From assembly GCA_018806915.1 (NCBI GenBank), contig JAGKQI010000090.1, positions 1,364,001 through 1,428,000 of the forward strand: a stretch of 64,000 bases of DNA. Direction: 5' to 3'. The notes below the pieces were generated by a model. It made no database searches, was not told the DNA's origin, and saw only the letters and a program-made list of their open reading frames with translations. Positions within the stretch are counted from its first letter, which is position 1; each line of letters opens with the position of its first letter. Both the position numbers and the translations under genes were made by a program. Source of the DNA: Phytophthora colocasiae. Taxonomy: Eukaryota > Oomycota > Peronosporomycetes > Peronosporales > Peronosporaceae. This document shows positions 23,701 to 64,000 of this stretch, in pieces.

Positions 23701-24396
23701 GTGTAGCCGGATGTCAGGTGATCGTAGGATAGCAGATGAGGATGGGACTAGTAGACATAGGAATAACCATAAACAGAATCGAATTTGCTCTGGACCTCAC
23801 AAGTGCCTTCGTCCAAGACTGGAACCGGGAATTACTTTGGCCCACCAGCGTCAAGAAGGTAAGGAGAAGAGATCTAGCATAGAGGTTAATTCTGGATAAT
23901 ACATTGGCCAGTTTTACCCTATCTAGTGATCTATCCTTTACGTGCGAACTACGGATCGGAAGGAATTGGCTGCTTGGCCTGACGATCTCGTCGACTCTCA
24001 ACCCATCAAGACACCTGCTATAGGAAGCGGCAAGCATCGTAAAGGAAGGGATCAGATCCCCAACATTGGACCCTTGGAAGACCTGGATCGAAGACCAGGC
24101 GACCGGATCAAGGCTCGAGAACTCGCCCACGACCCGGATCAACCCCTCCGAGGTAGAGTGAAGTATTCCCACGCTATCTCTCACCCCTGCGTCACCCAAG
24201 ACATTCTTCTCGTCCCAAGACATCTTCAGAAGTCACCTGGAAGAGCGTAACCCGCCTACCGACGGGTACACAAGGTGAACACTACACGCAGCAAGATCAC
24301 GGATCATCGGGGGACCCCCTCCGTTAGTCGGTGTCTGGGCGCAAGTGGCGATCGCGATCGGCCTCAACCAGATTTTGGCCAGATCCGCTCCACCAC
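23701..24396 (+). repeat. R2 3' LTR (about 696 bp)
   Basis: Runs from TGTAGCCGGATG to CCACCACA. It aligns with the R8 LTR (54870-55576) over its whole length, for example the ATAACCATAAACAGAATCGA block, and with the R2 5' fragment over its end. At 24397 it abuts R3 gag directly, without primer site or leader. Confidence 0.8.
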
Positions 24397-25388
24397 ATGA
24401 GTTTCCTCACTTGACCGACTCTCAGTTTGAGTCGGTCCGGAAGATGGCGGGCATCTTTGGGATGGATGCCTTCCGAAGCTTGGCTGCGGCGACGCCGGCC
24501 GAGCAGGTCGAACGCGTGGCGGCGTTCGACATGTACGAACGTGGGCTCATCGAGCACGTTCGAGGAACCTTTGAGGCTCCTGTGGTTGAACCGAGGTCGA
24601 CTCAACCCAAGCCTTTAAGACTCAAGGTTCTTCCCTATGAAGGGAAAGAAGGTGAGAACCTTCACTCTTGGATCCGAGAAGTTGAGCTCGCCATGGAGGC
24701 GGCTCTCATCTCGGCGGAGCGACTTCGGGTCGCTTTCGCGCTGTCTAACCTCGGGGGTCGAGCGAAGACATGGGCGTACACGCGCGAAGCGACGTCGCCT
24801 GGATGTTTTACATCCTGGGCCCAGCTGTGCGAACAGCTCCGGGCCGCATTCCTCCCGGCGAACTATGAGTATCGCCAGCGGTCACGCTTCCTAGCCTGCA
24901 AGCAAGGGAAACGTGACCTGCACGAGTACATCCAGGAGATGCGCGTTCTCGCGGCGTCTCTGGTGGGGAATCCCCTACCTGAACACATCCAAGTAACTGT
25001 GTTCATGGACGGCTTTAGAGTAAGCCCGGCCCGCACGCAGTTGTTCCGCGTGCAGGCCAATACGATGGAGGAGATTCAAGTCGCGCTCCAGGAGGAGTAC
25101 AGCCATACACAGGCTCAGACTCCTGCCTCTGCGTGGCAAGGCCACAGCGGGCCGACGACGGCGTCGGCCAGTGCTCCTGGGAATGGAGCAGGCTCGGGAC
25201 CAGCCCCTATGGACTTGGGGCTCGCCGAGCAGAAACGCATCCGCTGTTTCGAGTGCGGGCGTTTCGGACACTTCGCACGTGTCTGCCCCTCTGGGGGGCA
25301 ATGGAAGAGGTCTTCCAAGCCTCAGGGCTCTAAGGGCCGCTGGAAGAAGCCGGCGCCCAAGAGTCAGGGGAACTCCGGGGACCAGTAG
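24345..25388 (+). CDS. R3 Gag, fused in frame to the R2 LTR
   Basis: The open frame has 17 codons of R2 LTR and then R3 gag without a stop. The genuine gag begins about HLTDSQFESVRKMAGIFG, matching [19 protein letters not shown] of R5. Capsid domain: LKVLPYEGKEGENLHSWIREVELAMEA, RVAFALSNLGGRAKTWAY, QRSRFLACKQGKRDLHEYIQEMR. One CCHC knuckle, CFECGRFGHFARVC (about 25245-25285). Ends in TAG at 25386-25388, inside a hairpin. The authentic start codon was lost at the junction, and the codon at 24345 is not an obvious native start. Confidence 0.8.
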   Translation: MAIAIGLNQILARSAPPHEFPHLTDSQFESVRKMAGIFGMDAFRSLAAATPAEQVERVAAFDMYERGLIEHVRGTFEAPVVEPRSTQPKPLRLKVLPYEGKEGENLHSWIREVELAMEAALISAERLRVAFALSNLGGRAKTWAYTREATSPGCFTSWAQLCEQLRAAFLPANYEYRQRSRFLACKQGKRDLHEYIQEMRVLAASLVGNPLPEHIQVTVFMDGFRVSPARTQLFRVQANTMEEIQVALQEEYSHTQAQTPASAWQGHSGPTTASASAPGNGAGSGPAPMDLGLAEQKRIRCFECGRFGHFARVCPSGGQWKRSSKPQGSKGRWKKPAPKSQGNSGDQ

Positions 25389-25407
25389 GGGCGGGGCGCC
25401 CTACTGG
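25382..25407 (+). promoter_or_regulatory. R3 hairpin over the gag stop codon
   Basis: CCAGTAGGG (25382-25390) pairs with CCCTACTGG (25399-25407) around the loop GCGGGGCG. The gag TAG lies in the left arm. Protease is open in the -1 frame (GPVGAGRPTGETLS). The same loop and position occur in R5, R6, R7, R9 and R10, with compensating arm changes. Confidence 0.7.
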
Positions 25408-26462
25408 GGAAACACTAAGTCCCCATGCGGGTGGTGCGGGAGGCACACGCAGTGGAGACTTAGCCCCAGAGAGTCTTGGGACTCTCAAAGCGGAGAAGGG
25501 CAGCGGTGGGCTGCTGGTGGTACACGCGAGTGTACGGGGGTTTAACAACCCCTTTAGAGTCTTGATAGACTCTGGGGCGAGCAAGAACTTTGCTCGCCGA
25601 CAAACTGTCGCGAGGAACCGCGGCAAGTTTGAGGACGCTCTACGTGAGAGCGAGGGAAGTGGGCTAGTCGCCGTACGACTAGCCGATGGTACGGTGGTGG
25701 AAGTACCAAAGGTCCAGGTGGACCTGGCTGTGAAGTTTGAGGACTTCGACAGCGTGGAGTCGTTCATTGTCCTCGAGATGGACAAGTACGACTTGATCCT
25801 AGGGATGCCGTGGCTTGAGAAGCACGAGCCCTGGATCGATTGGCGCGGCAAAGCCATTGGGGCTAGCCGGCCTGCAGTCTCTGACAGAGCTTTGGTGAGT
25901 CATGTTCCCACATCTGTCAGGACTAAGGGCGTTCGCTGGAACCGCCAGGACGCGGCAGCGTCCGAGGAGTATTTGGGGGCTGGTGTAGTCGGTGCTACAT
26001 CGCCTCACACGAGAAGTGATCGTGGGCCATGGATGGCCGGGGCAACGGGCGGAGGCCCTTGCCCTACGTGTGGGTCTGCAACAACAGCAGGCCCCCCACG
26101 CACGAAGTCGCAACGTACAGGCTGCGACTGTGGTAGTGCCCGAGAGCACTAACCAGGTGGGTAACTTAGGTCCACAAGCGGATGCAAGAGTTCCGCAGGA
26201 AGCCAAGATGGCTCGCGATGCCGAAGTAGTGGCATCGCCAGGCGTACGAGAAGTAGTTCGACGCCAGGTCGCTCAGACCATAACTGATCAGGAAGACACC
26301 AAGGGTGCTTCCGATGCGGGTAACGCAGTTCCGCACGGAGCCATGAGGGCTCGTGATGCCATCGTAGTGGCATCACCGGGCGTGGGTAAGCTAACCCCAC
26401 GCCATGGTCGTAAGCCGGGGTTGGTAGAATACCATCCCGAAGAAGTCCACGAGGACTTATGA
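25389..26462 (+). pseudogene. R3 protease and pro-RT linker
   Basis: In the -1 frame from gag. Active site FRVLIDSGASKNFARR (about 25555) and LILGMPWLEKHEPWIDWRG, the pattern of gypsy proteases of this clade. The frame ends at 26152 after an indel. The linker continues in another frame from about 25992 to 26462, with two repeats around ASPGVREV and ASPGVGKL. It is nonfunctional as a continuous polyprotein. Confidence 0.75.
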
Positions 26463-27620
26463 CAGGAGCTAAAGGCTCCTAGGTCACAGCCGGTCGAAGA
26501 ATGCTATCACATCTTCGACGGCGTGACCGGGCATCGCGTGAAGGCGGGGGCCATCGAGTTGGCACCCCTGCCTGAGGTATCAGAGCTATTGAACCTCGAG
26601 GAAGTCGCGATGGAGGACTTCCTGGCCGAGTTGAAGGCCGGGAGATATCGGAGATGGTTCTCCTTAGGCCGGAGCCCACTCCAGAGGAGTTGAACTCCTC
26701 CTCAGTGATGGACGAAGACGTCCTGGAGGAGTTCCGGAAGCAGCGTGCGTCGCGCACGGGCTCCGAGATTCTGAAGAATACGAAGGATCCGTTGTATCCT
26801 TTAGTGAAGGAGTTTGAGGACGTGGTGTCTAAGGACCCACCCTCAAAGCTCCCACCAGACCGAGGGATCAGGCACGAGATTGATCTCGTGCCAGGCACAA
26901 AGTATTGTGTCACGCGTCAATGGCCCCTGCCCCGAGAGCAGAGCGACGTCATTGACGCGTTCTTCGCCGCTAAGGCGAAAGCGGGAATGGTGCGGGAATC
27001 GAAGTCCCCGCACTCGACGCCAACCTTCTGCGTTCGCAAGCCGAACGGGAAGTGGCGTCTGGTTCATGCTTACAACAAGCTGAACAGCGCGACTGTGCCA
27101 GCACAGACGCCGATCCCTCGCAAGGATGTGTTGTTGAACAACATGGCCGGTTGCACGCTGTATAGCGCGCTGGATCTGGTGGATGGATATTATCAGATCC
27201 TGATGCGGGAGTGTGATATCCCGCTCACGGCCGTGAGCACGCCGAGCGGTATGCTCTGGGAGTGGCTGGTAATGCCACAAGGTCTATCCAACGCACCAGC
27301 GACCTTCAATCGCTTTGTCACACAGTTGTTTAGACCTTTGCGTGCTTTCACGCAGACGTACTTTGACGATATATTCGTCCATAGCCGTGCCGAGGGAGGC
27401 AAGACGGCTATAGAGGTGCATCGAGAGCACCTCCGTCGAGTGTTTGAGGTCATGAGCTAACAAGCTCTATGCCAACATCGACAAGTGCGTCTTCGCAGCT
27501 GAGGAGATTAAGGTCCTCGGCTGCTTCGTCAGCAGCGTCGGGGTCCGAGCGGATCCTGACAAGGTCAAAGCCATTGCGGCATGGCCTGTTCCTCGGTCAC
27601 AGAAGGACCTGAGGAAGTGG
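26463..27620 (+). pseudogene. R3 reverse transcriptase
   Basis: RT motifs: LPPDRGIRHEIDLVPGTKYCVTRQWPLP, SPHSTPTFCVRKPNGKWRLVHAYNKLN, YSALDLVDGYYQILMRE, WLVMPQGLSNAPATFNRFV and YFDD at about 27358. The frame breaks at about 27457, where R5 reads RTNKLYANADKCVFGAEE and R3 has lost a base (stop TAA after MS). The continuation KLYANIDKCVFAAEEIKVLGCF is in the next frame. Confidence 0.85.
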
Positions 27621-28232
27621 TTGGGCTTAGCCAACTACTTGCACAAGTACAGTGCTGGCTATGCGGGACTCGCAAAGCCTTTGTCGGACCTTCTGAAGAA
27701 GGAGGCCGAGTGGTGCTGGGAGCGCCAGCACCAGGATGCTTTTGACAGCATCAAGGCGAGCTTGCAATGCGCGCCCGTCCTGGCGTTGCCGGACGATGCC
27801 AAGTCGTTTAGCGTTGTCTGTGACGCTTCCGACTATGCAATTGGCTGTGCGCTATTGCAACAGGACGATGAGGGACGAGATAGGGTGATCTCGTTCCAGT
27901 CCAGGCAGCTGAAGGCTGCCGAACGGAATTATCCCGTTCACGACAAAGGAACTCTTGTCGATGAAGTATGCCCTTGTCAAGTTCAGGGTGCATCTTCTGG
28001 GCTCAAGGCCCTTTGTGGTCTATACGGACCACGCGTCCTTGCGGACAGCCATCCATACGCCGCACTTATCGCAGCGGATGGCGCGTTGGCTGTCATTCTT
28101 CGCGGAGTATAACTTCCGCGTTGAATACAAGCCTGGCAAGCTCAACACGCTTGCCGACGCTTTGTCGCGCAGGCCCGACTATGAGTTCGCTCATATTAGT
28201 CGGGCCACGACGGATCTTACGATCGAATACGC
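27621..28232 (+). pseudogene. R3 RT connection and RNase H
   Basis: Reads LANYLHKYSAGYAGLAKPLSDLL, then the RNase H-like block VVCDASDYAIGCALLQQDDEGRDRVISFQSRQLKAAERNYPVHDK. An indel near 27948 moves the frame; it resumes as KYALVKFRVHLLGSRPFVVYTDHASLRTA and YKPGKLNTLADALSRRPDYE. Typical of the gypsy RNase H of this group, but broken. Confidence 0.8.
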
Positions 28233-30339
28233 TTGGCGTATCGGGACGATGACACCCTCGCCCCTATTGTGCGGTATTTGTCCGCTGGCACGGATGCCAA
28301 GGTCGAATGGCTTACGCCTCGACAGCGGGCACGGCTCCACCGCTATGAGTGGGCCGATGGCCTGCTCCACTATCGGGTGGAGCCCGGGGATCCTCCGCGG
28401 GTCGTTGTTCCGAACGACGAGGATCTGAAGTATGATATACTTACGAGGCACACGATGTGCCTTCGAGTGGCCACTTGGGCCGAGAGAAGACCTATCATGG
28501 GGTCTCTCTGATGTTTTGGTGGGCCCACATGTACAAGTGGGTGGCCAAGTACATCAAGACATGTGAAACATGTCAGCGCATGAAGCCTGCGGGGCACGCG
28601 TCGGCTCCGCTGCAGAGCCTGCCAGTCCCACTGGACTGCTGGAAGTCGATGAGTCTCGACTTTGTCTTCGGCCTTCCGGCCGATGACCAGAAGAACACCG
28701 GCATTGTGGTGTTTGTATGCCGGTTGAGCAAGATGGTGCATCTTGCTCCGGTCTCTGAGACCATAACCGGGGAACAAACTGCGAAGTTGTTCCTTGATAG
28801 CGTATTCCGCTATCACGGGTTGCCTGAGACTGTTGTCTCTGACCGCTACCCGCGGTTTACCGCTGCGTTTTGGAAAACGCTGTTCCAATTGCTAGGAACA
28901 CGGTTGACGATGTCAACAGCGGACCATCCGCAGACCGATGGTCAGACTGAGCGCGTCAACCGAGTGGTTGAGGACGTGCTGCGCAGTGTTTGCGCTGAGG
29001 CGCCGCGCTCTTGGTCAGCGCAGCTGCCTATGGTTGAGTTTGCACTCAACAACGCGGTACACGCGTCAACGGGGTTCACGCCGTTCTACTTGAACGGGCT
29101 TCGGAACCCCCCGGTGCCGCTCACACTGGGTGGGGGCACCGCGGCTTCGAGAGTAAGTGGGGGAGAGGCTCGGAAAGAGCTTTCCTCCCAGGTTTCCGGT
29201 GTGGAACCAGCCGCGTTGCGGAAGAAGTTGTCGACATTTGTCGGCAACAGGCTGAATGTGATCAGCCGGGTGCGAGATGCAATGGCACTCGCACAGGATA
29301 AACAGAAGGAGTACTCAGACCAACATGGAAGAGGAAACTTAAACGTGTTTAATGTGGGGGACTTAGTGCTACTCGACACTAGGAACCTACATCTTAACAC
29401 TGTTAGCTCCACGGTGAGCAACAAGTTGAAGCATCGCTTCATTGGACCCTTCAAGGTCCTGAGTAGGCACGGCGCTGCCTACACGATCGACTTGCCTAAG
29501 TCGATGACGACCCACCCGACGTTTTATGTGGGTCGTCTGAAGCGGTACCATGACCCTCAGGGTCATGCGGCCCCTCAAGAGGTTGAAGGCGGCCGCGAGG
29601 AGGAGAGTGAACCTCCTCGACGCGAGGTTGAGCGTCAGGCGCAGAGCGCCCCAGGTAATAGGGAGTTTGGTGACTCCCAGGGGCGAAGCCGTACCCCGGT
29701 GGAAGGTACGAGCGGTGTGGATACACCGAGGGGCCAAGCGAGTAGGCCCCTAGGCGCGAGTCGCGCGACGACGGGGAGTACGCGTACGGTTGCGACTCCC
29801 GGCGAGACATCGTCGCCTGAAGGTCGTAGACCTCTTGACGAAGGGAGTCAAGTGCCCGCGAAGAGGCACTACGGTCTACACGACCATGAAGACCCTGCAT
29901 CGCGAGACGCAGGTCTTCCAACTGGCGCAAGACACCAGGCAGGTCGGCTGCATGGGCAGCTTGGCCGCCATGCTCAAGACCAAGAGCACCCTCAAGCGCA
30001 AGGACACGCGCTCGGAGGAGACGGATCTCCTCCTGTTGCTGAGCAACAAGTTGGTCAAGAGGCCCAGTCGAGGCCTCTGAGTCCCCAACGTCGGGGACGG
30101 CTCGAAAGAGCAGTCGAGCGAGGCCTCCTCCGGCTTTGCTTGACCGGAACGGAGAACGCCACTACCATGTGGAGCGGGTTCTCCAGGAGCGGCGTCGCGG
30201 TGGGAAGCGCCAGCTCCGAGTGAAGTGGCGCGGGTACCCTGCGTCGCAGAGTACCTGGGAGCCGATTGAGCGGCTCCAGGTTGACTGCCCGAAGGCTGTC
30301 GCGTGCTGGGAAGAGGCACGGCGGCAGCCTCGTAAGTAG
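28233..30339 (+). pseudogene. R3 integrase and chromodomain
   Basis: The N-terminal part (28233-28511) and the rest (from about 28457) lie in different frames. Zinc region: SGHLGREKTYHG to CETCQRMKP. Core: Asp in SLDFVFGLPADD, Asp in TVVSDRYPRF, Glu in QTDGQTERVNRVVEDVLR. A polar linker (29560-30110) overlaps the antisense ORF. The chromodomain (30136-30339, another frame) reads HYHVERVLQERRRGGKRQLRVKWRGYPASQSTWEPIERL. The DDE residues are present, but the frame changes prevent one product. Confidence 0.82.
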
Positions 30340-31679
30340 TCCGCGGCTTCTTAGCCGCTGAACGGGGTTGGAACACAGGTGTATGTGTTCCATACCCGCG
30401 CTCATTGTGAGCGCTGGACTGAGACTCAGTTCTCAGTCGCTCCATCTGATGATGGAACTGACGTTTGCCTACGAGGTGGGCAAACTGGACACGAAGGTCC
30501 CGGAGGCGGAGGATGTCCTCCAGGTGATCTTCGTCACGGAGTTTGTGGTACTCCTGGGTTGACTTGACTGTCAACCGGACCCATTGCCAAAAGAGGTCCT
30601 CAGCGTCGACCCACGACGCAGTGTTCTCTGGGAGAACCCATGGGTAACCCCATGTGGGCTTGAGACCACCCTTAGTCTCAGGCTTCTTGCGAAGCGAGGT
30701 GAATTCCTTGAGAGGAATTCGGTGCTGTGCTAGAAGCACGCACCTGGCAACAGAGAGGTTGCCTTGAAAGAGAGGTTCTTTCTGAACCAAGGCCCGCTCA
30801 TAGGCGCCTTTGGAGGTATGACCCCTATGAGAGGACGCGGGTCCTGGAGCTGCTCGAGATACGCAGCAGCTCCCGAGCCTTGATCGGGCGGGTAGTAGCC
30901 CGCTGGTGGACAGAGTCCTCATCGTGTTGATGAGACCCACCTGCGACCGTTGGTGCGGTGCGCATTGGCTGTTGAGCAGCCTGAAAGAGCTCTTGCTGCT
31001 CATCGAGATCGTTAGTGATCTCTTGGGGCTCGCGGATGAGCCCCTCCTCATCGGCGTCGTCATCGTCGACGTCGTCGGGGCCGAAGATCTCTTCGAGCTC
31101 CCTTCTCCTTGTCATGTCTTGACGAGGAGACTGTGAAGCATGACGCTTCTTGGAGTTGGTGCTGGGCACCTTCTCCTCTGCCAGAATGGCCCGGGCGCGT
31201 TCGCACCCTTCAGCAAGTGTCAGATGTCTGACAGGTGGTGGCGTAGTGTCGCCACCACGGCCGCTGGTGTTGTCGGGAGACTTGGACGCGGTGTCCTTGT
31301 CTCCATGGTGCTCCTCCGTGGTCGGAGCACCCGCCGCAGGCTTGCCCTCGGTGTCGCCGTTGTCGCTCTCGTCGCCCGGGTAGATGACAAGAGTCGCTTC
31401 CTGTTCGGAAGGACTCCAGGAACCGGGACTATGGTCCCTATAAACGAACCGAGGATTCGGTCGGTTATCAGGCGGTAGGGATGGAGACCTACTGCGCCTT
31501 TGGCTAGGGCTAGCCGTCGCAGCAGTGCTGCTGGGCGAGCTAAGAGCCCTGGAGGCCACATCGGTGGCCTCATGAAGTGCCGAAGCCTTGCCGCGAGGCT
31601 TGGCTGGCTTGGAAGTTGGCTTTGCAGCCTTCTTCCGTGAAGACGCTTGCGCGTCTGGGTTTGCACCCTTTGCAGACAT
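29876..31679 (-). pseudogene. R3 antisense ORF, one frameshift
   Basis: Starts at an ATG (31679, MSAKGANPDAQASSRKK), 182 bp inside the 3' LTR. N-terminal Lys/Ser/Pro-rich region, an acidic patch (FGPDDVDDDDADEEG), then an indel near 30830 to a second frame. That frame has a more structured middle (LLAQHRIPLKEF, YPWVLPENTASWVDAEDLFWQWVRL, EDILRLRDLRVQFAHL). The tail overlaps the sense integrase linker. The middle resembles the R5 antisense ORF: YP..L near the start and L-x-x-Q-(F/Y)-A-(H/K)-L at the end. Function unknown. Confidence 0.5.
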
Positions 31680-31861
31680 GTTGCTGGGCTTCCAAGGAAG
31701 CCTGGTACGCGTTGGCAGTGCGCCCTGTGCTCTGTGAGAGCAGAAGCCGCAGCGACTAGAGCTGGCGGCAGGTCGATCGATTTCGACATTGAAGAGAGAA
31801 ATGTGAAAGGGATTTTCTCTCTTCTCTGATTGGACGAGAGTCGAATCTAAGTGGGGGAGGA

Positions 31862-32177
31862 TGTAACGGGGTTACATTGAAGAGTGACTAAAGTCACTCT
31901 TCCGAAGTGGATACATTTGGTGTGTCACACATAATGGTGACACGTGGCAGGTGGCTCCGCAGCCACCTATCACCTTCTATATAGGTTACACTATAGATAT
32001 CTTTTAGTTTGTATTGCAGGCCAAGCTAACAAGTATCTATAATATATTCAGTCTTAAATCTACCTAATCTTTAGTTAGTCTCCCCAAGTCTTTGGGGACC
32101 GAGTGAACTGCCGTTCACTAGGAGTTTGTATACTCCAAGCCTTCCTCTGTGTGAAGTGCTGTGTGACCCCCGTCACA
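31862..32177 (+). repeat. R3 3' LTR (right edge approximate)
   Basis: Begins TGTAACGGGGTTACA after the purine tract GGGGGAGGA, as in R5/R6. A 10-bp stem with a 4-nt loop (GAAGAGTGAC...GTCACTCTTC) follows at once. The right edge is put at a CA near 32177 by analogy. The 5' LTR is missing, so it cannot be confirmed. Confidence 0.55.
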
Positions 32178-46310: not shown

Positions 46311-46315
46311 CCTGT
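45950..46315 (+). repeat. Coding tandem repeat in the R6 linker (about 5 units)
   Basis: Units of the AARTPxSDxGxGPSxSLxVxDxGP type, the second slightly shorter. Two units more than in R5 and R7. Confidence 0.72.
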
Positions 46316-47620
46316 GCGGCGGCACGTACTCCGTCGAGTGGACGTTCGTCGGCTAGGCGACGACGTCGTAAGGCCCTATGGGCGAGACGCTCTGCGTCTG
46401 AGTCGTCCGTGACGCCAAGTGTCAATGCACTGGAGGGCTGTGGGCAGCTATACACTCTGGTTGATGGTGTGGGCGGCAGTGCTGAAGGCAGCGTCCTGCT
46501 GGACGAACTGCCGAGTGTTGACAAGCTCCTTGAACTAGAGGAGATGTCGTTCGCCGACTTTGGCGATGCCTTGAAGGCTGGCGAACTCGCCGAGGTGGTC
46601 ATCGTTCGACCTGAAGAGGAGTTAAACTCATCGTCCCTCGTTGACGAGTCCGTCTTGGCCGAGGTCAAGAAGGCGCTGAGCGCCAGGAGTGGATCGGAGA
46701 TCCTCAAGAATCCCTCGGATCCCTTCTACTCCTTGCTGAAGGAAAATGGAGACGTTGTCTCGAAGGAACCACCGAGTGGCCTGCCTCCTGACCGAGGCGT
46801 TCGTCACGAGATCGACTTAGTTCCCGGAACTAAATACTGCGTGACCCGGCAGTGGCCTCTTCCTAAAGAGCAATGCGACGTCATTGACGCCTTCTTCCGT
46901 GCTAAGCACGCGGCGGGTCTCGTGCGCGAGAGCAAGTCTCCGCACTCCGCGCCAACGTTCTGTGCCAGAAAGCCGAATGGCAAGTGGCGTATCGTTCACG
47001 CTTTTAACAAGCTCAACGCTGCCACGATTCCGGCGCAGACGCCGATTCCTAGGAAGGATGTTCTTCAGAACAACATGGTGGGTTGCACCATGTACAGTGC
47101 GCTCGACTTAGTCGATGGCTACTAACAGCTGCTCATGCGAGCCAGTGATATTCCGCTCACAGCGGTGAGCACCCCGAGCGATATGCTCTGGGAGTGGCTC
47201 GTGATGCCCTAAGGGCTGTCGAATGCGCCTGCAACGTTCAACCGTCTAGTGACGCAGTTGTTCAGGCCCCTACGGGCATTCGCACAGACGTACTTTGACG
47301 ACGTGTTCGTTCACAGTCAGGCCGAACACGGCAAGACTGACGTTGAGGTGCACGTGGAACACGTGAGAGCTGTGCTCGAGTGCATGCGCACGAACAAATT
47401 GTACGCCAACGCAGACAAGTGCGTCTTTGGCGCGGAAGAAATCCCCTTCCTAGGGTGCTTCATGGCCTTCGTGCTGATCCAGCAAAGGTCAAGGCCATTG
47501 TGGACTGGCCGGTTCCCTTGAACCAGAAGGACTTGCGTAAGTGGCTGGGCTTGGTCAACTACTTGCACAAGTACAGCGAGAACTACGCTGAGTTGGCTCG
47601 GCCACTGTCTCCTTAAGAAG
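46311..47620 (+). pseudogene. R6 reverse transcriptase with shared stops
   Basis: From 46409 the frame reads LYTLVDGVGGSAEGSVLLDELPSVDK, then the RT motifs as in R5, with the block absent from R5 (LQNNMVGCTMYSALDLVDGY) present. TAA follows at 47123-47125, where R3 has YYQ, and a second TAA replaces CAA in MPQGLSNAP (about 47211). YFDD is at about 47293. Shifts after GCFMAF and ARPLSP are shared with R5. Confidence 0.85.
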
Positions 47621-48480
47621 GATGCCGAATGGGTATGGCGTGCTGAGCACGAGAGTGCGTTCACTCGTATCAAGGATAGCCTGCTTCAGGCACCGATACT
47701 GGCGTTGCCAGACCCCGATCGTCCGTTCATTGTCATCTGTGACGCCTCGGACTTTGCCATCGGCAGTGCTTTGCTACAAGCGGACGCCGAAGGGCGCGAA
47801 CGCGTCATTGCGTTTGAGTCTCGGCAGCTCAAGGCTGCTGAGAAGAACTATCCAGTTCATGACAAGGAGCTACTTGCGATGAAGTACGCCCTCGTCAAAT
47901 TCAGGGTTCACCTGCTCGGCTCCAAGCCGTTTGTGATCTACACGGATCATGCGTCACTACGCACAGCGACGCAGTCGCCTCACCTCTCGCAGAGGATGGC
48001 CCGATGGCTCTCCTTCTTTGCGGAGTATAACTTCGAGGTGAAGTACAAGCCTGGCAGGCAGAACGTCCTCGCTGACGCGCTATCACGTCGCCCGGACTAT
48101 GAGTTATCTCATGTCACCTCGGTGACGTCGTCCGTGACGGACATGGTTCGAGCAGCGTACGCTCAGGACGACTCTTGTGTCGCGCTGCTTCAAGCTCTAG
48201 GGAGCGATGAGTTTAAGGACTCAAAGGTGACTCTGTCACGACGGCTAAAGGCGAGACTCCAGCGCTATAGCCTGGAAGGTGGTCTGCTGTACTACAGCAC
48301 GGGTCAGGATGACCCACCACGTGTGGTGGTTCCTCACGATGAGGACCTGAAGTATCGTATCCTCTATGAGGCCCACGACACGCCCACAAGCGGCCACCTC
48401 GGTCGCGAGAAGACCTACGGCTCGGTGAGCTCCATGTACTGGTGGCCGAAGATGTACAAGTGGGTCAGCACATATGTGCA
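47621..48480 (+). pseudogene. R6 RNase H and integrase N-terminus
   Basis: The frame 47705-48946 is open through RNase H (VICDASDFAIGSALLQ, YKPGRQNVLADALSR) and into integrase. Nearly identical to R5. The first part, KKDAEWVWRAEHESAFTRIKD, precedes in another frame. Confidence 0.82.
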
Positions 48481-50042
48481 CACGTGCGAGACGTGTCAGC
48501 GGGTTAAACCCTCGCCGCATGCGGCAGCGCCTTTGGCGAGCTTGCCTGTACCCTCTGGGTGTTGGCAGTCTATGAGTATGGACTTTGTGTTTGGCCTGCC
48601 GAAGGATACGGCAGGCAACACGGGTGTTGTGGTCTTTGTTGACCGTCTGAGCAAGATGGCTCACCTAGCGGCTGTGCCGGACACCGTCGATGGCGCTGTA
48701 CAGCGACGATCTTTATCGATCGGGTCTTCCGCCAGCATGGGCTGCCAGACCATTGTCTCGGATCGAGACCCCCGTTTCACGGGTCACTTCTGGACGTCCG
48801 TCTTCAAAGTGCTTGGCACTCGACTGGACATGTCCACGGCGGATCATCCGCAGACCGACGGTCAGACTGAACGCGTGAACCGCGTCCTGGAGGACATCCT
48901 CCGCAGCGTATGCGCTGAAACGCCGAAGCGTTGTCCCTCTCGTTGAGTTCTCAATGAACAACGCGGTGCATGCCTCGACAGGCTTCACCCCGTTCTACGT
49001 GAACGGACTTGCGCATCCGCGCGTCCCGCTCACTCCGCCACGCGGTAGCCTTGGGCTTGGTGGGGGAGAGGCTGTGCCGTCGCTCGACTCCGAGCTTGCT
49101 GATGTCAGCCCCCTTGCTGTTCGCAAGCAAGTCGATGCCTTCCTCTCGATGAGGCTTAGCGTCTTACGCCGTGTGCGTGACGCAATGGCTGAAAGCCAAG
49201 ATGTTCAAAAGGAACAAGCTGATGCCAAAGGCAGAAGCAACATGTGGGAGTTCAAGGTCGGTGACCACGTTTTATTAAACGCTAAGAACCTGCCTACACA
49301 CGCAGTGTCAGCCGTCTTCAAGACGAAGTTGCGGCCGCGCTTCATTGGACCGTTCACGGTCGTGGCCAAGAAGGGCCTGGCATACACGCTTGACTTGCCA
49401 AAGCGTATGCGAACACATCCTGTGTTCTACGTAGGCTTGCTTAAGCCATATCGGGATCCTGCTCTTGTGAGTTCTGAGGCGCTGGCGCCGAGTCGGACGA
49501 AGGCTGCACGGCAGCAGGTGGCAGAGCCACAGGTGGTTGCATCCGAACCAACAGGTCTTGTCGATCCGGAGCAACGTGATGCTCGAGGTCATAGACCCGC
49601 TGATGCAGCACCAGAGGCGACTCAGACCGGTCCCCGCGACTCTAGGTCTCCTCGAGACCAGTCGCTAAGCGATGGGTCGGATGACCGACGTGGCGGTCGT
49701 GCTCCTTCACCGAGCCGACGCGGGTCTGCAAGCAATGCAGCGCGTCTACACTCGCAGCGCGAGAACCCATCGACCGCTCGTCCTCCTCCTGCTCTGCTCG
49801 ATGAGCAAGGTGAGCTTCACTATCACGTGGATCGCCTGATGGCGCGGCGTCGTCGCCAAGGACACAACCAGTATCTGGTGAAGTGGCGAGGTTACCCTCA
49901 CTCACAGAACTCGTGGGAGTTTGAGGTGCCACTACGGCAGGATTGCCCCGACGTCGTTGACGCGTATGATCGGGCACACCCGGTGTCGGACCGCCCGGTG
50001 GGCGTGCGACGGAGTCGCCGGGTGCCAAGCACCTCCCACTAA
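48481..50042 (+). pseudogene. R6 integrase and chromodomain
   Basis: The zinc region is complete here (CETCQRVKP). Asp in SMDFVFGLP, Asp in TIVSDRDPRF, Glu in QTDGQTERVNR. Between them a one-base loss (near 48696) and a two-base loss (near 48749) put about 18 codons out of frame, then restore it. An 11-base loss near 48935 ends the frame; it resumes at 48954 (NNAVHASTGFTPFYVNG). The chromodomain (49810-49950) reads HYHVDRLMARRRRQGHNQYLVKWRGYPHSQNSWEF. Stop TAA at 50040-50042 in a hairpin. Confidence 0.85.
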
Positions 50043-51336: not shown

Positions 51337-53262
51337 GTGGACAAACACGTCGTCAAAGTACGTCTGTGCGAATGCCCGCAGAGGCCTGAACAACTGCGTC
51401 ACTAGACGGTTGAACGTTGCAGGCGCATTCGACAGCCCTTAGGGCATCACGAGCCACTCCCAGAGCATATCGCTCGGGGTGCTCACCGCTGTGAGCGGAA
51501 TATCACTGGCTCGCATGAGCAGCTGTTAGTAGCCATCGACTAAGTCGAGCGCACTGTACATGGTGCAACCCACCATGTTGTTCTGAAGAACATCCTTCCT
51601 AGGAATCGGCGTCTGCGCCGGAATCGTGGCAGCGTTGAGCTTGTTAAAAGCGTGAACGATACGCCACTTGCCATTCGGCTTTCTGGCACAGAACGTTGGC
51701 GCGGAGTGCGGAGACTTGCTCTCGCGCACGAGACCCGCCGCGTGCTTCGCACGGAAGAAGGCGTCAATGACGTCGCATTGCTCTTTAGGAAGAGGCCACT
51801 GTCGGGTCACGCAGTATTTAGTTCCGGGAACTAAGTCGATCTCGTGACGAACGCCTCGGTCAGGAGGCAGGCCACTCGGTGGTTCCTTTGAGACAACGTC
51901 TCCATATTCCTTCAGCAAGGAGTAAAAGGGGTCCGAGGGATTCTTGAGGATCTCCGATCCACTCCTGGCGTTCAACGCCTTCTTGACCGCGGCCAAGACG
52001 GACTCGTCAACGAGGGACGATAAGTTTAACTCCTCTTCAGGTCGGACGATGACCACCTCAGCGAGTTCGCCAGCCTTTAAGGCATCGCCAAAGTCGGCGA
52101 ACGACATCTCCTCTAGCTCAAGGAGCTTGTCAACACTCGGCAGTTCGTCCAGCAGGACGCTGCCTTCAGCACTGCCGCCCACTCCATCAACCAGAGTGTA
52201 TAGCTGCCCACAGCCCTCCTGTGCGTCGGTACTCGACGTCACGGATGACTCAGACGCAGAGCGTCTCGCCCAAAAGGCCTTACGACGTCGTCGCCTAGCC
52301 GACGAACGTCCATTCGACGGAGTACGTGCCGTCGCACAAGTTTCGGCCTCTCTCGGCCCAGTGTCAGAGACACACAGCGATCCACTCGGTCGATGGCCGA
52401 TGTCGCTCAGCGGAGTACGTGCCGCTGCACAATCAATGACCGTAGCTGGTCCAATGTCAAAGACATTCAGCGATCTACTTGGTACACGACCAGTATCGCT
52501 CGGCGGATAACGTGCGGCCCCACAGGGATTAGGTGGGCCTTGCCCACACGTTGACTCACTGTCAACCAGCGCTACGCGCTCAACAGGACTGCGGTCCTCA
52601 CACTCGGTGCTGTCCACCAGATCGGACACACCGACTTCCAGCATCATAGCCGACTCGGCTCGATGCTCGCGCCAATAGCGCTTCTGCTTCCTAGCAGAGG
52701 TGGGTTCATGACTCGCCAAAGCTCCACTAGGAGAGAAGTGCGTAGCACTTAAGGTCTTCGACCTCCAATCAATCCATGGCTCGTGGCGCTCCAGCCACGC
52801 CATGCCAAGGATGAGGTCGTACCTCGAATCCAGGTCCAGGACCAAGCAGCGTTCCACGCTGTCGAAGTCCAAGAACTTCAGCCGCAGATCCATGGGGACC
52901 TTGGCCACCGTGACACGGACGCCCGTCGCTAGACGGACAGTAACTGTGTCACCTCTTCGCGCTCGAAGCGCCTCAGCATATTGCTGACTACCTTCAACGG
53001 TGATGTAGTTGCCAGACGCCCTCGAATCGATCAACACGATCCACGGCTTCTCGATGCCCTTCACGTCCACCTGGACGACCAGCAAGCCCTGCTTGCTCAC
53101 ACGTTCCGTGTTAAAGAGCACGGAGCTCTTCGGGGCTGAGCCCCAGTGCCTCTCACGCACTGCAGAACTCAGTTCTTCCCAGTAGACCGCCCCGCGTCTA
53201 CTGGGAGCCGTCGTTTCCCTGGGCAGAGCCCAAAGCGGGACCCGCGGCAGGGTTGCGGCCAT
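51337..53262 (-). pseudogene. R7 protease and partial RT
   Basis: The frame 53262-51526 covers protease (VLIDSRASGNYITV), a linker with three repeats, and RT to LVDGY followed by TAA. RT sequence continues after the stop to the YFDD region, where it ends. The gag-stop hairpin lies at 53178-53205. Confidence 0.83.
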
Positions 53263-57967: not shown

Positions 57968-58431
57968 TGTAATGGGGTTACACGTACAAGTGGTAGTACC
58001 ACTTGAAACTCTAACAGTTAGGATAACTGTTAGAGGTTGGAAATGGGCCTCAGACCTTGGTGTGCTGTACACACCAATGGATACATGGGCAAACCACATT
58101 ATTAGGTGGTTCGTTTGCATTTGTGCATATTATTAGTAGAAAGTTACGGATTTCTACCAATCACTGAGCAGAGTTTCTGCCAACCACACGTTGGCAGACC
58201 CTTTAGAAATAGATAATAAACAGTTTTAGGAGGTCCATAATTGGCTTATGCCAAATTCAATAACAGTTCTCATTTTACGGTATTTTGCGGTTTAATTTAG
58301 TTATATTTGATTTAATTATACTTACTTATTTAAATAAGTATACTTAAATTAAGTCTATTCTAATTGCACGCTTCCTCATACACGTAAGCGCACGTGTACG
58401 CCATCTAATAGGTCTAGGTAGACCCATTACA
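57968..58431 (+). repeat. R9 5' LTR (464 bp)
   Basis: TGTAATGGGGTTACA to ACCCATTACA. Differs from the R10 LTR at several sites. Stems: 9 bp around 57989-58010, 10 bp CTAACAGTTA/TAACTGTTAG, 9 bp TCTGCCAAC/GTTGGCAGA. Confidence 0.88.
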
Positions 58432-58433
58432 CC

Positions 58434-58449
58434 TGGTAGCACTTAGTAG
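58434..58449 (+). promoter_or_regulatory. R9 tRNA primer binding site
   Basis: TGGTAGCACTTAGTAG, two bases after the LTR; the R5 type with small changes. Confidence 0.65.
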
Positions 58450-58480
58450 TCCGTCCCACGACCGACTGCAGTTCGTTCGT

Positions 58481-59466
58481 ATGGAGTCATACGAACGCGG
58501 GGTAGAGAACTCCCCAATGGATGAGGGATCCACTGGGACCCCACACATGTCCGTGACGCGCACGGACTGTGCCCACCTGTCGGACCCAGAGTGGGAAGCT
58601 CTCCAAAGACTTTCACAAGTCATTGGAGAGGCAGCGGTAGCGACGATGCTTTGCACGCTATCGCCGACAGAGCAACACGGTGTTGCTCTGGGGTACATTG
58701 TTAAGGAGCAACGAGATGTTGCTGCCTCGGTGGCTTCCCCTAAGCCACGCGTGGAGTCGTTGAAACTCCACGTGAGTACCTACACGGGGAAGGAGGACGA
58801 GACCCTCCTTCGGTGGCTTGTCGAACTCGACACAGCCGTTGCGGCTCGACGTATCGTCGATCCGATGTCGAAGGTCGCGTTCGCCATGTCATGTCTTGGC
58901 GGACGTGCGAGGAGTTGGGCCTATGGGCGCCGACTCTCGGATCCTACGTGCTTCGGCACGTACGAGGTGTTCAAAGCGGAGCTCAAGCTTGCGTTTGAGC
59001 CTCCGAAGAACGAGTTCAGATCGAGAGCGGAGTTTCTTGATCTGCAGCAGGGCAAGGATGATGTCCACACCTTTGCCCAGCGTGCTCGATACTTGGTATC
59101 GAACATAGTGGCCAACCCGATCGACGAGGCGACCAAGGTCGTCACGTTCATGAAGGACTAAGAGATGGTCCCGTCGAAACATACCTCTTCCGAGAGTATC
59201 CGAATACTCTCGAGGAAGCGATCAGCCTTGCGATGCAAGAGGAGTTTAGCCGGCGTCAAGCTAAACTCCATGCGAACGCGCCGAAGCCGGCGCGTCCTGT
59301 TGTGAAGACGGGAGGTCCGGAACCTATGGACCTCTCGAGTGCTACGACTGCTGGTCAACAGCAGCGTAGGAACAGCAAGGTTCGATGTTACAAGTGTAGT
59401 AACATCGGTCACTATGCACGCGAGTGCATGGCGGGCGGGCGTTCAAAAAACGCCAAGGACCAGTAG
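58481..59466 (+). pseudogene. R9 Gag, one-base deletion
   Basis: Same as R10 gag, but one G is missing at about 59155 (MKD then stop instead of MKGLRDGPVETYLF). The knuckle CYKCSNIGHYAREC and the end SKNAKDQ are intact in the other frame. The ATG lies inside a 10-bp stem (58474-58497). Confidence 0.88.
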
Positions 59467-59485
59467 GCGCGGGGCGTCTTACTGG
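59445..59485 (+). promoter_or_regulatory. R9 candidate -1 frameshift signal
   Basis: A AAA AAC at 59445-59451 in the gag frame, 8-nt spacer, hairpin 59460-59468/59477-59485 with loop GCGGGGCG and the gag TAG in its left arm. As R10. Confidence 0.75.
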
Positions 59486-60233
59486 TGATGCAGTCTCGCG
59501 TGTCGAGCTTGGACACGCGACAATGACGACTGCTGCCCCCAGCGAGAAATTTTCTCGCTGTAAGCTGCAAGATGACAAGCCAAACCTTGTCATCCTGAAC
59601 GTAATGTCGAAGAGAGTTAACTCTCTTCGTGCCCTAGTGGACTCGGGCGCGTCGAACAACTTTGTTCGACAGGGAAGTCTTCGAAGAATTGACTTCGAAG
59701 AGGCCGACACGCCTCGCAGCGTGTTGGAGGTGCGGTTGGCAACAGGTGCCACCGTGAGGACTGAGAAGCGCGTAGTCCGTGTGCGCTTCTCTTACAAACG
59801 AAGGACGTTTGTAGAAGATCTTATCGTCTTGGATCTAGACGATAAGTTCGACATGGTATTAGGCATGCCGTGGCTTGCACGGCATGACCCGGTGATCAAC
59901 TGGGAGAAGCGTACACTCGTACGCTTCAACAACACATGCGCGACAGAGAGCGATGGCCCTGTCAGCGCTGCACATGCACCGGCCGGTGCATGTGAATCCC
60001 CAGTTGAGGCAGCAGCGGCCGCCGCTGCCTCCGATCGCCGCCGGCGACCATCAACGACTTCGGGAGTCGTTGTGAGAAAATGTGTGTCGACTCAGAAATC
60101 TGAGCCGAAGGGTCGCGGTCACATGAGTGATGGTCAGGTGAATGTGAATCACCTGACGCGTAAACATCTGAATGATGTTTGTCACATGAGTGATGGTCAG
60201 GTGAATGCGATTCACCTGAGAGAAGGTAAAATA
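59452..60233 (+). CDS. R9 retropepsin-type protease
   Basis: As R10: [16 protein letters not shown] and [18 protein letters not shown]. Open frame from the frameshift site; the last 30 codons of the longer open frame (to 60326) are antisense copia sequence. No RT follows. Confidence 0.8.
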
Positions 60234-60693
60234 CCGGTATTACCGGTATCCTTGAGCACCTTCACCACATCTTGCGTCCGCAGCTCTGCATTGCTCATCT
60301 GCATGTTGAGCACGACGTTCTCGTAGCTCTTTGGCAGACTGCGCAGCAAACAGATCGCCACATCCTCGTCCTCCATCTTGGCGCCGATACTGCTAAGCTT
60401 CGCGCTGATGTTGAGGACCTCGTTGCAATGGTGACGGATGTTTCCGCCTTCTGCCATCTCCATGCTGAAGAGCTGACGCTTGAGATAAATGCGTCCAGCC
60501 TTCTGCGATCCACCGTAAAGGGTACGTAAGCGCGCCCACGCGACCCAGGCTTCCTCGTAGTCGTCGACCACATGATGGTAGTCCGCGTCCATGTGGAGGA
60601 GCATCAGACCGAAGGCGACGTTGCTCGACTTCCGTTGAACTTGTCGATGGAGATCTTGGTATCTTGGACAGATGACATCGTGCTTGGGCTCAT
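60234..60693 (-). pseudogene. Ty1/copia Gag fragment in R9
   Basis: ATG at 60693 ([22 protein letters not shown]), then a frame change near 60625 to [74 protein letters not shown]. This is the copia-type gag (UBN2-like) pattern. Truncated at about 60234, where the gypsy protease frame ends. Confidence 0.82.
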
Positions 60694-60697
60694 AACC

Positions 60698-60900
60698 TGA
60701 AGAAGGTCGTCACAGAGGTTGTCTTGCGAGGAGGCCGAGGCGAGGGAAGTCACTTGAGGGGTAGAATGGAAATTCAGAAGTGATTGATTGATATGAGCTT
60801 ACACTGTCTTCTCTACCTGGTCTGCATCCAATCATTTGGTGCATCCAATCACCAACATTCTGTACTCGTCCAATCATCCTACTCGTCTAATCATCGGTGG
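60698..60900 (-). repeat. Copia LTR end and primer site in R9
   Basis: On the minus strand the presumed LTR ends CTTCA at 60698 and is followed by GGTTATGAGCCCAAG (60697-60683). That resembles the initiator-Met tRNA anticodon region, used as a half-tRNA primer by copia elements. The gag ATG is inside it. The left part of the copia LTR is missing; it abuts the gypsy LTR. Confidence 0.6.
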
Positions 60901-61360
60901 TGTAACGGGGTTACACGTACAAGTGGTTGTACCACTTGTAACTCTAACAGTTAGGATAACTGTTAGAGGTTGGAAATGGGCCTCAGACCTTGGTGTGCTG
61001 TACACACCAAAGGATACATGGGCGAACCACATTATTGAGTGGTTCGTGTGCATTTGTGCATATTATTGGTAGAAAGTAATGGATTTCTACCAATCACTGA
61101 GCAGAGTTTCTGCCAACCACACGTTGGCAGACCCTTTAGAAATAGATAATAAACAGTTTTAGGAGGTCCATAATTGGCTTATGCCAAATTCAATAACAGT
61201 TCTCATTTTACGGTATTTTGCAGTTTAATTTAGTTATATTTGATTTAATTATACTTATTTAAATAAGTATATTTAAATTAAGTCTATTCTAATTGCACGC
61301 TTCCTCATATACGTAAGCGCACGTGTACGCCATCTAATAGGTCTAGGTAGACCCATTACA
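60901..61360 (+). repeat. LTR shared by R9 and R10 (460 bp)
   Basis: TGTAACGGGGTTACA to ACCCATTACA. Identical to the visible part of the LTR at 63831, slightly different from 57968-58431. Confidence 0.9.
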
Positions 61361-61362
61361 CC

Positions 61363-61378
61363 TGGTAGCACTTTGTAG
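61363..61378 (+). promoter_or_regulatory. R10 tRNA primer binding site
   Basis: TGGTAGCACTTTGTAG, two bases after the LTR. Confidence 0.65.
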
Positions 61379-61409
61379 TCCGTCCCACGACCGACTGCTG
61401 TTCGTTCGT

Positions 61410-62396
61410 ATGGAGTCATACGAACGCGGGGTAGAGAACTCCCCAATGGATGAGGGATCCACTGGGACCCCTCACATGTCCGTGACGCGCACGGACTGTG
61501 CCCACCTGTCAGATCCAGAGTGGGAAGCTCTCCAAAGACTTTCACAAGTCATTGGAGAGGCAGCGGTAGCGACGATGCTTCGTACGCTATCGCCGACAGA
61601 GCAACACGGTGTTGCTCTGGGGTACATTGTTAAGGAGCAACGAGATGTTGCTGCCTCGGTGGCTTCCCCTAAGCCACGCGTGGAGTCGTTGAAACTCCAC
61701 GTGAGTACCTACACGGGGAAGGAGGACGAGACCCTCCTTCGGTGGCTTGTCGAACTCGACACAGCCGTTGCGGCTCGACGTATCGTCGATCCGATGTCGA
61801 AGGTCGCGTTCGCCATGTCATGTCTTGGCGGACGTGCGAGGAGTTGGGCCTATGGGCGCCGACTCTCGGATCCTACGTGCTTCGGCACGTACGAGGTGTT
61901 CAAAGCGGAGCTCAAGCTTGCGTTTGAGCCTCCGAAGAACGAGTTCAGATCGAGAGCGGAGTTTCTTGATCTGCAGCAGGGCAAGGATGATGTCCACACC
62001 TTTGCCCAGCGTGCTCGATACTTGGTATCGAACATAGTGGCCAACCCGATCGACGAGGCGACCAAGGTCGTCACGTTCATGAAGGGACTAAGAGATGGTC
62101 CCGTCGAAACATACCTCTTCCGAGAGTATCCGAATACTCTCGAGGAAGCGATCAGCCTTGCGATGCAAGAGGAGTTTAGCCGGCGTCAAGCTAAACTCCA
62201 TGCGAACGCGCCGAAGCCGGCGCGTCCTGTTGTGAAGACGGGAGGTCCGGAACCTATGGACCTCTCGAGTGCTACGACTGCTGGTCAACAGCAGCGTAGG
62301 AACAGCAAGGTTCGATGTTACAAGTGTAGTAACATCGGTCACTATGCACGCGAGTGCATGGCGGGCGGGCGTTCAAAAAACGCCAAGGACCAGTAG
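61410..62396 (+). CDS. R10 Gag (328 aa), intact
   Basis: ATG 61410 (MESYERGVENSPMDEG). Capsid domain: LKLHVSTYTGKEDETLLRWLVELDTA, KVAFAMSCLGGRARSWAYGR, FRSRAEFLDLQQGKDDVHTFAQRARYLV, TFMKGLRDGPVETYLFREYP. One knuckle, CYKCSNIGHYAREC (62315-62356). Ends [11 protein letters not shown] then TAG. Similar in size and order to R5 gag. The frame is clean, so this is the best candidate here for a translated Gag. Confidence 0.9.
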   Translation: MESYERGVENSPMDEGSTGTPHMSVTRTDCAHLSDPEWEALQRLSQVIGEAAVATMLRTLSPTEQHGVALGYIVKEQRDVAASVASPKPRVESLKLHVSTYTGKEDETLLRWLVELDTAVAARRIVDPMSKVAFAMSCLGGRARSWAYGRRLSDPTCFGTYEVFKAELKLAFEPPKNEFRSRAEFLDLQQGKDDVHTFAQRARYLVSNIVANPIDEATKVVTFMKGLRDGPVETYLFREYPNTLEEAISLAMQEEFSRRQAKLHANAPKPARPVVKTGGPEPMDLSSATTAGQQQRRNSKVRCYKCSNIGHYARECMAGGRSKNAKDQ

Positions 62397-62415
62397 GCGC
62401 GGGGCGTCTTACTGG
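62375..62415 (+). promoter_or_regulatory. R10 candidate -1 frameshift signal
   Basis: Heptamer A AAA AAC (62375-62381) with codons TCA AAA AAC in the gag frame. Spacer of 8 nt (62382-62389), then arms 62390-62398 and 62407-62415 around GCGGGGCG. Eight of nine pairs form, one of them G-U. The TAG (62394-62396) is in the left arm. A -1 shift gives [21 protein letters not shown], running into protease. A AAA AAC is a classical retroviral gag-pro heptamer (for example MMTV). Confidence 0.8.
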
Positions 62416-63163
62416 TGATGCAGTCTCGCGTGTCGAGCTTGGACACGCGACAATGACGACTGCTGCCCCCAGCGAGAAATTTTCTCGCTGTAAGCTGCAA
62501 GATGACAAGCCAAACCTTGTCATCCTGAACGTAATGTCGAAGAGAGTTAACTCTCTTCGTGCCCTAGTGGACTCGGGCGCGTCGAACAACTTTGTTCGAC
62601 AGGGAAGTATTCGAAGAATTGACTTCGAAGAGGCCGACACGCCTCGCAGCGTGTTGGAGGTGCGGTTGGCAACAGGTGCCACCGTGAGGACTGAGAAGCG
62701 CGTAGTCCGTGTGCGCTTCTCTTACAAACGAAGGACGTTTGTAGAAGATCTTATCGTCTTGGATCTAGACGATAAGTTCGACATGGTATTAGGCATGCCG
62801 TGGCTTGCACGGCATGACCCGGTGATCAACTGGGAGAAGCGTACACTCGTACGCTTCAACAACACATGCGCGACAGAGAGCGATGGCCCTGTCAGCGCTG
62901 CACATGCACCGGCCGGTGCATGTGAATCCCCAGTTGAGGCAGTAGCGGCCGCCGCTGCCTCCGATCGCCGCCGGCGACCATCAACGACTTCGGGAGTCGT
63001 TGTGAGAAAATGTGTGTCGACTCAGAAATCTGAGCCGAAGGGTCGCGGTCACATGAGTGATGGTCAGGTGAATGTGAATCACCTGACGCGTAAACATCTG
63101 AATGATGTTTGTCACATGAGTGATGGTCAGGTGAATGCGATTCACCTGAGAGAAGGTAAAATA
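62382..63163 (+). CDS. R10 retropepsin-type protease
   Basis: -1 frame from gag. Active site [15 protein letters not shown] (about 62565), then [19 protein letters not shown] and [23 protein letters not shown]. The C-terminal part is variable ([12 protein letters not shown] twice). The open frame goes on to 63256, but beyond about 63163 it is antisense copia sequence. Confidence 0.85.
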
Positions 63164-63623
63164 CCGGTATTACCGGTATCCTTGAGCACCTTCACCACAT
63201 CTTGCGTCCGCAGCTCTGCATTGCTCATCTGCATGTTGAGCACGACGTTCTCGTAGCTCTTTGGCAGACTGCGCAGCAAACAGATCGCCACATCCTCGTC
63301 CTCCATCTTGGCGCCGATACTGCTAAGCTTCGCGCTGATGTTGAGGACCTCGTTGCAATGGTGACGGATGTTTCCGCCTTCTGCCATCTCCATGCTGAAG
63401 AGCTGACGCTTGAGATAAATGCGTCCAGCCTTCTGCGATCCACCGTAAAGGGTACGTAAGCGCGCCCACGCGACCCAGGCTTCCTCGTAGTCGTCGACCA
63501 CATGATGGTAGTCCGCGTCCATGTGGAGGAGCATCAGACCGAAGGCGACGTTGCTCGACTTCCGTTGAACTTGTCGATGGAGATCTTGGTATCTTGGACA
63601 GATGACATCGTGCTTGGGCTCAT
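63164..63623 (-). pseudogene. Ty1/copia Gag fragment in R10
   Basis: Identical to that in R9 as far as seen, including the frame change after FNGS. ATG at 63623. Confidence 0.82.
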
Positions 63624-63627
63624 AACC

Positions 63628-63830
63628 TGAAGAAGGTCGTCACAGAGGTTGTCTTGCGAGGAGGCCGAGGCGAGGGAAGTCACTTGAGGGGTAGAATGGA
63701 AATTCAGAAGTGATTGATTGATATGAGCTTACACTGTCTTCTCTACCTGGTCTGCATCCAATCATTTGGTGCATCCAATCACCAACATTCTGTACTCGTC
63801 CAATCATCCTACTCGTCTAATCATCGGTGG
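63628..63830 (-). repeat. Copia LTR end in R10
   Basis: Same as 60698-60900; the primer-site-like GGTTATGAGCCCAAG is at 63627-63613. Confidence 0.6.
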
Positions 63831-64000
63831 TGTAACGGGGTTACACGTACAAGTGGTTGTACCACTTGTAACTCTAACAGTTAGGATAACTGTTAGAGGT
63901 TGGAAATGGGCCTCAGACCTTGGTGTGCTGTACACACCAAAGGATACATGGGCGAACCACATTATTGAGTGGTTCGTGTGCATTTGTGCATATTATTGGT
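63831..64000 (+). repeat. Third LTR of the R9/R10 array, cut by window end
   Basis: First 170 bp identical to the LTR at 60901. Whether another unit or unique sequence follows cannot be seen. Confidence 0.9.

Follow-up and report, generated by a model that had tools for sequence, protein, structure and literature searches.

What maintains a coding sequence that consists largely of short perfect inverted repeats? The question is raised by R9, a gag-protease remnant in a 64,000-nucleotide stretch (the window) of the Phytophthora colocasiae genome (92.5 Mb in 105 contigs). R9 belongs to family A, a young, high-copy Ty3-type LTR retrotransposon with a chromodomain. Together with the next unit, R10, it forms part of a tandem array (57968–63847) whose 2.93-kb units have LTRs in common (LTR starts at 57968, 60901 and 63831); the array extends past the window, with a third unit at C57:1429258. 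Both R9 and R10 retain gag and protease only; the R9 gag frame is broken by a stop at 59159–59161, and that of R10 stays open to its end (Table 1). Inside the units, in antisense, lies a Copia-type gag frame (60215–60709, minus strand; PF14223, E = 3.1e-38).

The inverted repeats of R9 far exceed chance

All 23 inverted repeats of the initial annotation were found at their places, some longer than given (Table 1); further R9 hairpins beyond that list have 7-bp arms or one mismatch. Positions 58401–60300 hold 25 non-overlapping inverted repeats with arms of at least 8 and loops of at most 11, where base composition predicts 0.37, so that the annotated excess is upheld, as is its recurrence at similar density in R10. 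In the protease ORF (59424–60326), 17 were observed, against a mean of 0.69 (maximum 3) in 300 synonymous shuffles and 0.14 (maximum 2) in 100 dinucleotide shuffles. The ORF at 58481–59161 contains 3 with arms of at least 8 (synonymous mean 0.19, maximum 1) and 7 with arms of at least 7 (mean 0.58, maximum 4). Across family A, all five frames lie 25–38-fold above synonymous shuffles. The annotation had named such shuffles as the comparison that could overturn it, and both kinds fall far below the observed density. Opposed by the shuffles, by the composition expectation and by the 0.1–0.9 hairpins per kb of other elements in the same window, an origin of the R9 hairpins in chance or base composition is hardly credible. 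The captured Copia fragment, with no hairpin of arm 8 or longer, provides an internal contrast. The presumed R9 primer-binding site sits in a leader free of hairpins.

Table 1. Features of the window (hairpins given as arm/loop; positions within the window)
Feature	Position	Strand	Remark
5' LTR of R9	57968..58431	+	TGTAAT...CCCATTACA; ends also by comparison with locus L042
R9 LTR hairpins	57987, 58009, 58057, 58176, 58323	+	plus one imperfect at 58406
Presumed primer-binding site TGGTAGCACTTAGTAGTC	58434..58451	+	identity inferred from position after LTR
Hairpin 10/4	58474..58497	+	
Hairpin 11/1	58668..58690	+	longer than first listed
Hairpin 8/7	58750..58772	+	
Hairpin 8/7	58789..58811	+	longer than first listed
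Hairpin 9/4	59191..59212	+	
Hairpin 10/9	59241..59269	+	
Hairpin 8/4	59276..59295	+	longer than first listed
Hairpin 9/7	59383..59407	+	
Hairpin 9/7	59496..59520	+	absent from first list
Hairpin 10/1	59540..59560	+	
Hairpin 9/6	59571..59594	+	
Hairpin 11/0	59608..59629	+	
Hairpin 9/2	59651..59670	+	
Hairpin 9/6	59678..59701	+	longer than first listed
Hairpin 9/11	59763..59791	+	
Hairpin 8/5	59793..59813	+	
Hairpin 10/7	59820..59846	+	
Hairpin 9/5	59864..59886	+	
Hairpin 9/4	59906..59927	+	
Hairpin 12/0	59971..59994	+	
Hairpin 8/10 (13 pairs, one mismatch)	60006..60031	+	absent from first list
Hairpin 8/5	60052..60072	+	
Hairpin 9/7	60133..60157	+	
Hairpin 10/3	60197..60219	+	
Hairpin 9/1	60231..60249	+	absent from first list; last before captured Copia fragment
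Captured Copia-type gag fragment	60250..60900	-	frame 60215-60709
R10	60901..63830	+	LTR 60901-61360, gag 61410-62396, protease frame 62354-63256
Family B relative	24345..31968	+	32 hairpins of arm >=8, 4.2 per kb
Gag-protease junction hairpins	59445-59486; 25382-25407; 37994-38021; 45275-45302; 53177-53206 (-)		

Hairpins cover longer copies of family A

A search of the genome with R9 gag gave 1219 candidates, of which the best 150 were scored and are 92–100% identical, and family A is therefore large. The closest organism-assigned gag relative is from Phytophthora citrophthora (97% identity over 96% of the query), and gag relatives from other Phytophthora genomes range from 70 to 97%. Every one of 12 fetched 10-kb loci around A copies holds a hairpin-rich stretch, with 24 (short remnant L048) to 117 hairpins, and in loci L042 and L050 the density falls sharply outside the element. 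Confinement to gag and protease, as first described, is too narrow: in L042 the hairpins span LTR, gag, protease, RT, integrase and a 3' antisense-ORF stretch. The L042 slice (8,027 bases, about 234 bases short of the 3' LTR end) contains 108 hairpins of arm at least 8 and 140 of arm at least 7, and perfect stems make up 31% of its bases. These hairpins are local and perfectly Watson-Crick, with arms of 7–13 bp (7:32, 8:25, 9:44, 10:21, 11:15, 12:2, 13:1; mode 9) and effective loops of 3–11 nt; they follow each other with no evident regularity (gap mean 34.6, sd 32.7). Per kb (arm at least 7), there are 13.5 in the LTR, 0 in the leader (49 bases), 14.5 in gag, 21.7 in protease, 22.8 in the linker behind it, 17.8 in RT-RNase H, 14.7 in RNase H/integrase and 17.7 in the antisense-ORF stretch.

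The L042 LTRs (446 bp) differ at 2 positions, and direct repeats were present in all four loci examined; no target-site duplication was found in the L042 slice, which ends inside the 3' LTR. Pfam matches were obtained for four of five frames of locus L043 (Ty3 capsid, CCHC, aspartyl protease, RT, RNase H, integrase, chromodomain), and by coordinates gag, protease, RT-RNase H, integrase and chromodomain follow the order of Ty3-type chromodomain elements. Gag queries from P. ramorum and P. fragariae brought up no A relatives of intermediate divergence in this genome among the matches listed (117 per search), all of which look like family A. In IMG/VR, one protein and two alignments gave no relative.

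Hairpin cover is graded among sister families, at different places

Family B (Table 1) lies 8–24-fold above synonymous shuffles in four of four frames. Family C (36904–50042) has 0.7–0.9 hairpins per kb and reaches 0–2.5-fold in its three frames, and elements D and E stay close to chance. The same order appears in the plus-strand folding z, averaged per 150 nt (A -4.7, B -3.7, C -1.7, D -0.4), and in the mean MFED, the folding energy difference from shuffled sequence (A 36%, B 27%, C 10%, D 4.4%). Hairpin cover is thus graded among relatives within one genome, with B intermediate. Conservation of hairpin places between families was considered and rejected, as only 3 of 52 aligned A stems are retained in B and 1 of 59 in C. 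Where both sides of a pair are altered between A and the sister families, the changes lean to Watson-Crick, not decisively.

The gag-protease junction hairpin is an exception to unshared places. It encloses the gag stop codon and is found in all three families, A, B and C; GCGGGGCG is constant in its loop, and its stem co-varies. The protease frame is -1 relative to gag, and in family A the heptamer A AAA AAC (59445–59451) lies upstream of the hairpin; the two together resemble a -1 frameshift signal. The canonical heptamer was absent from the B and C copies read.

Long antisense ORFs lie between integrase and 3' LTR in A (7621–9168 of L043, minus strand), B (29876–31063, minus strand) and C (42135–43283, minus strand). 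BLASTP similarity was absent in the pairs compared (A with B, C with B), and the A ORF, which carries 24 hairpins, gave no Pfam match.

Shared variants are depleted in stems

Variation among copies was compared between stems and other sites. The gag-pro alignment had 44 rows (43 copies plus R9, duplicates removed and matches under 1000 bases dropped), and other segments had 5–46 rows. Nine segments were pooled, and columns with fewer than 6 letters were dropped, thereby removing segment 7467–7815; a first set for 6400–7810 left no sites, and ten more copies were added. The reference state is the majority letter of a column, not an inferred ancestor. The main analyses used only perfect stems of arm at least 7; one earlier set was listed by hand and includes some one-mismatch stems.

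In gag-pro, variants common to at least three copies occur at 2 of 530 stem sites and 123 of 1321 others, and rotating the stem mask (1850 rotations) never gave a value as low. Singletons occur at 85 and 240 of the same sites, and 356 of 1850 rotations were as low. At third codon positions, shared variants number 1 in 174 stem sites and 56 in 401 others, with singletons at 0.149 and 0.222 per site. Pooled variants in at least two copies were found at 36 of 2053 stem sites and 372 of 5004 others, with 196 and 611 singletons (0.095 and 0.122 per site); the depletion of shared variants in stems relative to singletons has P = 1.7e-11. The hand-listed stems agree (8 of 674 stem sites against 117 of 1177 others, variants in at least three copies). 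When sites at which the copy used for choosing stems has the minor letter were dropped as a control for that choice, P was 3.7e-8 (stems 85 single plus 2 shared, others 235 plus 85). By segment, uncorrected for the several segments, P was 0.024 for the pol piece, 0.019 for 2250–3270, 0.039 for 4270–5500 and 0.050 for 5500–6400; in the LTR-leader segment alone depletion was not significant (P = 0.062). For the antisense-ORF piece, shared variants were as low in none of 1000 rotations, but singletons were low too (3 of 1000), and the Fisher test gave P = 0.10. The nine rows of family B gave P = 0.44.

Since stems are strongly short of shared variants but only slightly short of singletons, selection rather than copying alone is indicated, and we are highly confident that purifying selection keeps hairpin pairing in transposing A lineages. 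As loops vary, hairpins prefer no codon register (11, 10 and 8 in gag-pro) and places are mostly unshared between families, what selection maintains is how much local pairing there is, a global fold property, and not given sites. Shared variants per gag-pro site are 0.20 in loops and 0.077 in linkers; given this difference, linkers may be under additional constraint, for instance from pairing that is imperfect or of longer range.

Selection, copying and strand

The initial annotation had also proposed that a copying mechanism created the repeats. Hairpin-templated copying, through quasi-palindrome correction or template switching by reverse transcriptase, could keep arms matching without any function, and the strict Watson-Crick arms, together with fixed mismatches that show no G-U excess, speak for it. 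It predicts, however, many compensated pairs. Stem-pair states in at least two copies include 1 double Watson-Crick change and 1 other double change, against single changes of 16 G-U, 3 A-C, 4 Watson-Crick and 9 other. It also leaves unexplained why shared variants, and not singletons, are depleted in gag-pro stems, and why the captured Copia fragment gained no hairpins. Nor is the protein distorted within stems: residues wholly encoded by stems match the proteins of other species at 0.766 against 0.728 outside for gag (P = 0.98) and at 0.813 against 0.785 for RT (P = 0.80), and as they are as conserved as the others, the A protein has not been overwritten. As a whole account, a purely mutational origin is therefore improbable, even though such copying may have helped hairpins arise; the alternative suggestion, that synonymous choice forms the hairpin chain, is supported in substance.

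On which strand does this selection act? Pooled shared transitions of G-U and A-C type number 18:6 in stems and 100:138 outside (P = 0.0023), and the hand-listed stems, on overlapping data, give 16:5 and 35:57 (P = 0.0029). This bias among shared variants suggests that the plus-strand RNA is probably the main selected molecule. Singletons lean to G-U as well (73:52 in stems, 157:195 outside; P = 0.009), which could reflect mutation bias. Alternatively, selection might act on both strands or mainly on the complementary one, as antisense RNA or as minus-strand cDNA in reverse transcription. The fixed pairs fit such a reading, being nearly all Watson-Crick, with rare mismatches that lack a G-U excess (stems with one fixed non-Watson-Crick pair: 9 G-U, 12 A-C and 9 other in L042; 8, 14 and 9 in L043), as do the stronger folding of the minus strand (z -5.5 against -4.7; MFED 46% against 36%) and the antisense ORFs toward the 3' ends of A, B and C. 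With the shared stem transitions pointing the other way, toward the plus-strand G-U type, we regard it as rather unlikely. A plus-strand-only reading is nonetheless incomplete, because G-U is not in excess among the fixed mismatches and folding of the minus strand is no weaker. Admitting G-U pairs also adds few hairpins in A and many in MS2, a further point against the plus strand. We read the evidence as plus-strand RNA strongly selected for stability, possibly with a second need on the complementary strand.

Proposed function of the fold

The fold would hold the genomic RNA of family A self-paired, and such RNA would escape pairing with antisense transcripts and silencing guide RNAs, while stems of about 9 bp would be too short for Dicer, which needs perfect pairing over some 20 bp at least. 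All 140 perfect stems of the L042 slice measure 7–13 bp, and thus a role as a source of dsRNA or small RNAs, which the initial annotation had entertained, fits poorly. In P. infestans, LTR retrotransposons are reported as the main source of small RNAs, which map over the length of Gypsy elements in either orientation and include a Dicer-dependent 21-nt class (PMC3522703). A shield against silencing is our leading, though tentative, suggestion for the function; against it stands family C, which thrives in the same genome without hairpin cover. The combined account, in which a selected global fold of the plus-strand RNA serves as such a shield, seems to us nearly as probable as not.

A broader version would treat the A genome as position-independent armour, more than 100 one-turn Watson-Crick hairpins acting as a counter-defence against RNA silencing. 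As hairpins would form on both strands, sense-antisense and guide pairing would be blocked while remaining below the Dicer limit. Armour of this kind would take in synonymous and non-coding positions, with C, B and A as graded evolutionary stages; from sequence comparison, this version in all its parts is doubtful. Somewhat less likely still is a distributed packaging or compaction signal, by which the hairpins let Gag condense and select genomic RNA in particles. Hairpins along the whole transcribed element, a CCHC knuckle in Gag and selection on global pairing would all suit packaging, but with loops that vary freely and places that differ between families neither a site nor a loop motif is preserved, and family C has no such cover.

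Comparison with known systems

Among the open-licence PMC papers listed in literature searches, no title or abstract opening reports hairpin cover of this kind for a retrotransposon. In gene and domain content A resembles Ty3-type (Metaviridae) chromodomain elements, yet hairpin cover is missing from families C, D and E, which lie in the same window. One genome holds many copies of hairpin-rich A, intermediate B and poor C, and because these coexist, natural comparison can test how global RNA structure affects silencing, packaging and copy number. Codon choice in mobile elements can follow nucleic-acid structure, which calls for caution in codon-usage and dN/dS work.

The phage MS2 (NC_001417) likewise folds strongly and locally along its coding RNA (MFED 29%). 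MS2 relies on G-U pairs, with 0.56 hairpins per kb (arm at least 8, loop 3–11) when only Watson-Crick pairs are allowed and 6.16 with G-U, whereas A goes from 12.96 to 16.32; A is thus denser in perfect hairpins than this yardstick. The plus strand of MS2 folds better than its complement, and that of A does not.

The closest known kind is the genome-scale ordered RNA structure found in RNA viruses, for which a 3% MFED line has been drawn (PMC3950689). MFED was computed here with RNAfold, 15 shuffles and non-overlapping 300-base fragments, a procedure that differs from that source. Order-dependent folding in A is likewise genome-wide, coding sequence included, and MFED exceeds 3% in all 26 fragments; the threshold is lax in our RNAfold setup, as element D also averages 4.4%, with 15 of 24 fragments above 3%. 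The mean for A of 36% compares with 9.0% and 10.9% for stretches of two viruses, obtained with another program and fragment layout (PMC3950689). Unlike these viral structures, A is made of separate perfect hairpins and is strand-symmetric, and it is an LTR retrotransposon, not a positive-strand RNA virus. By its sequence A would work like genome-scale ordered RNA structure, yet we do not class it as a member. If this likeness is true, the genome-wide ordered RNA structure of RNA viruses extends to an LTR retrotransposon.
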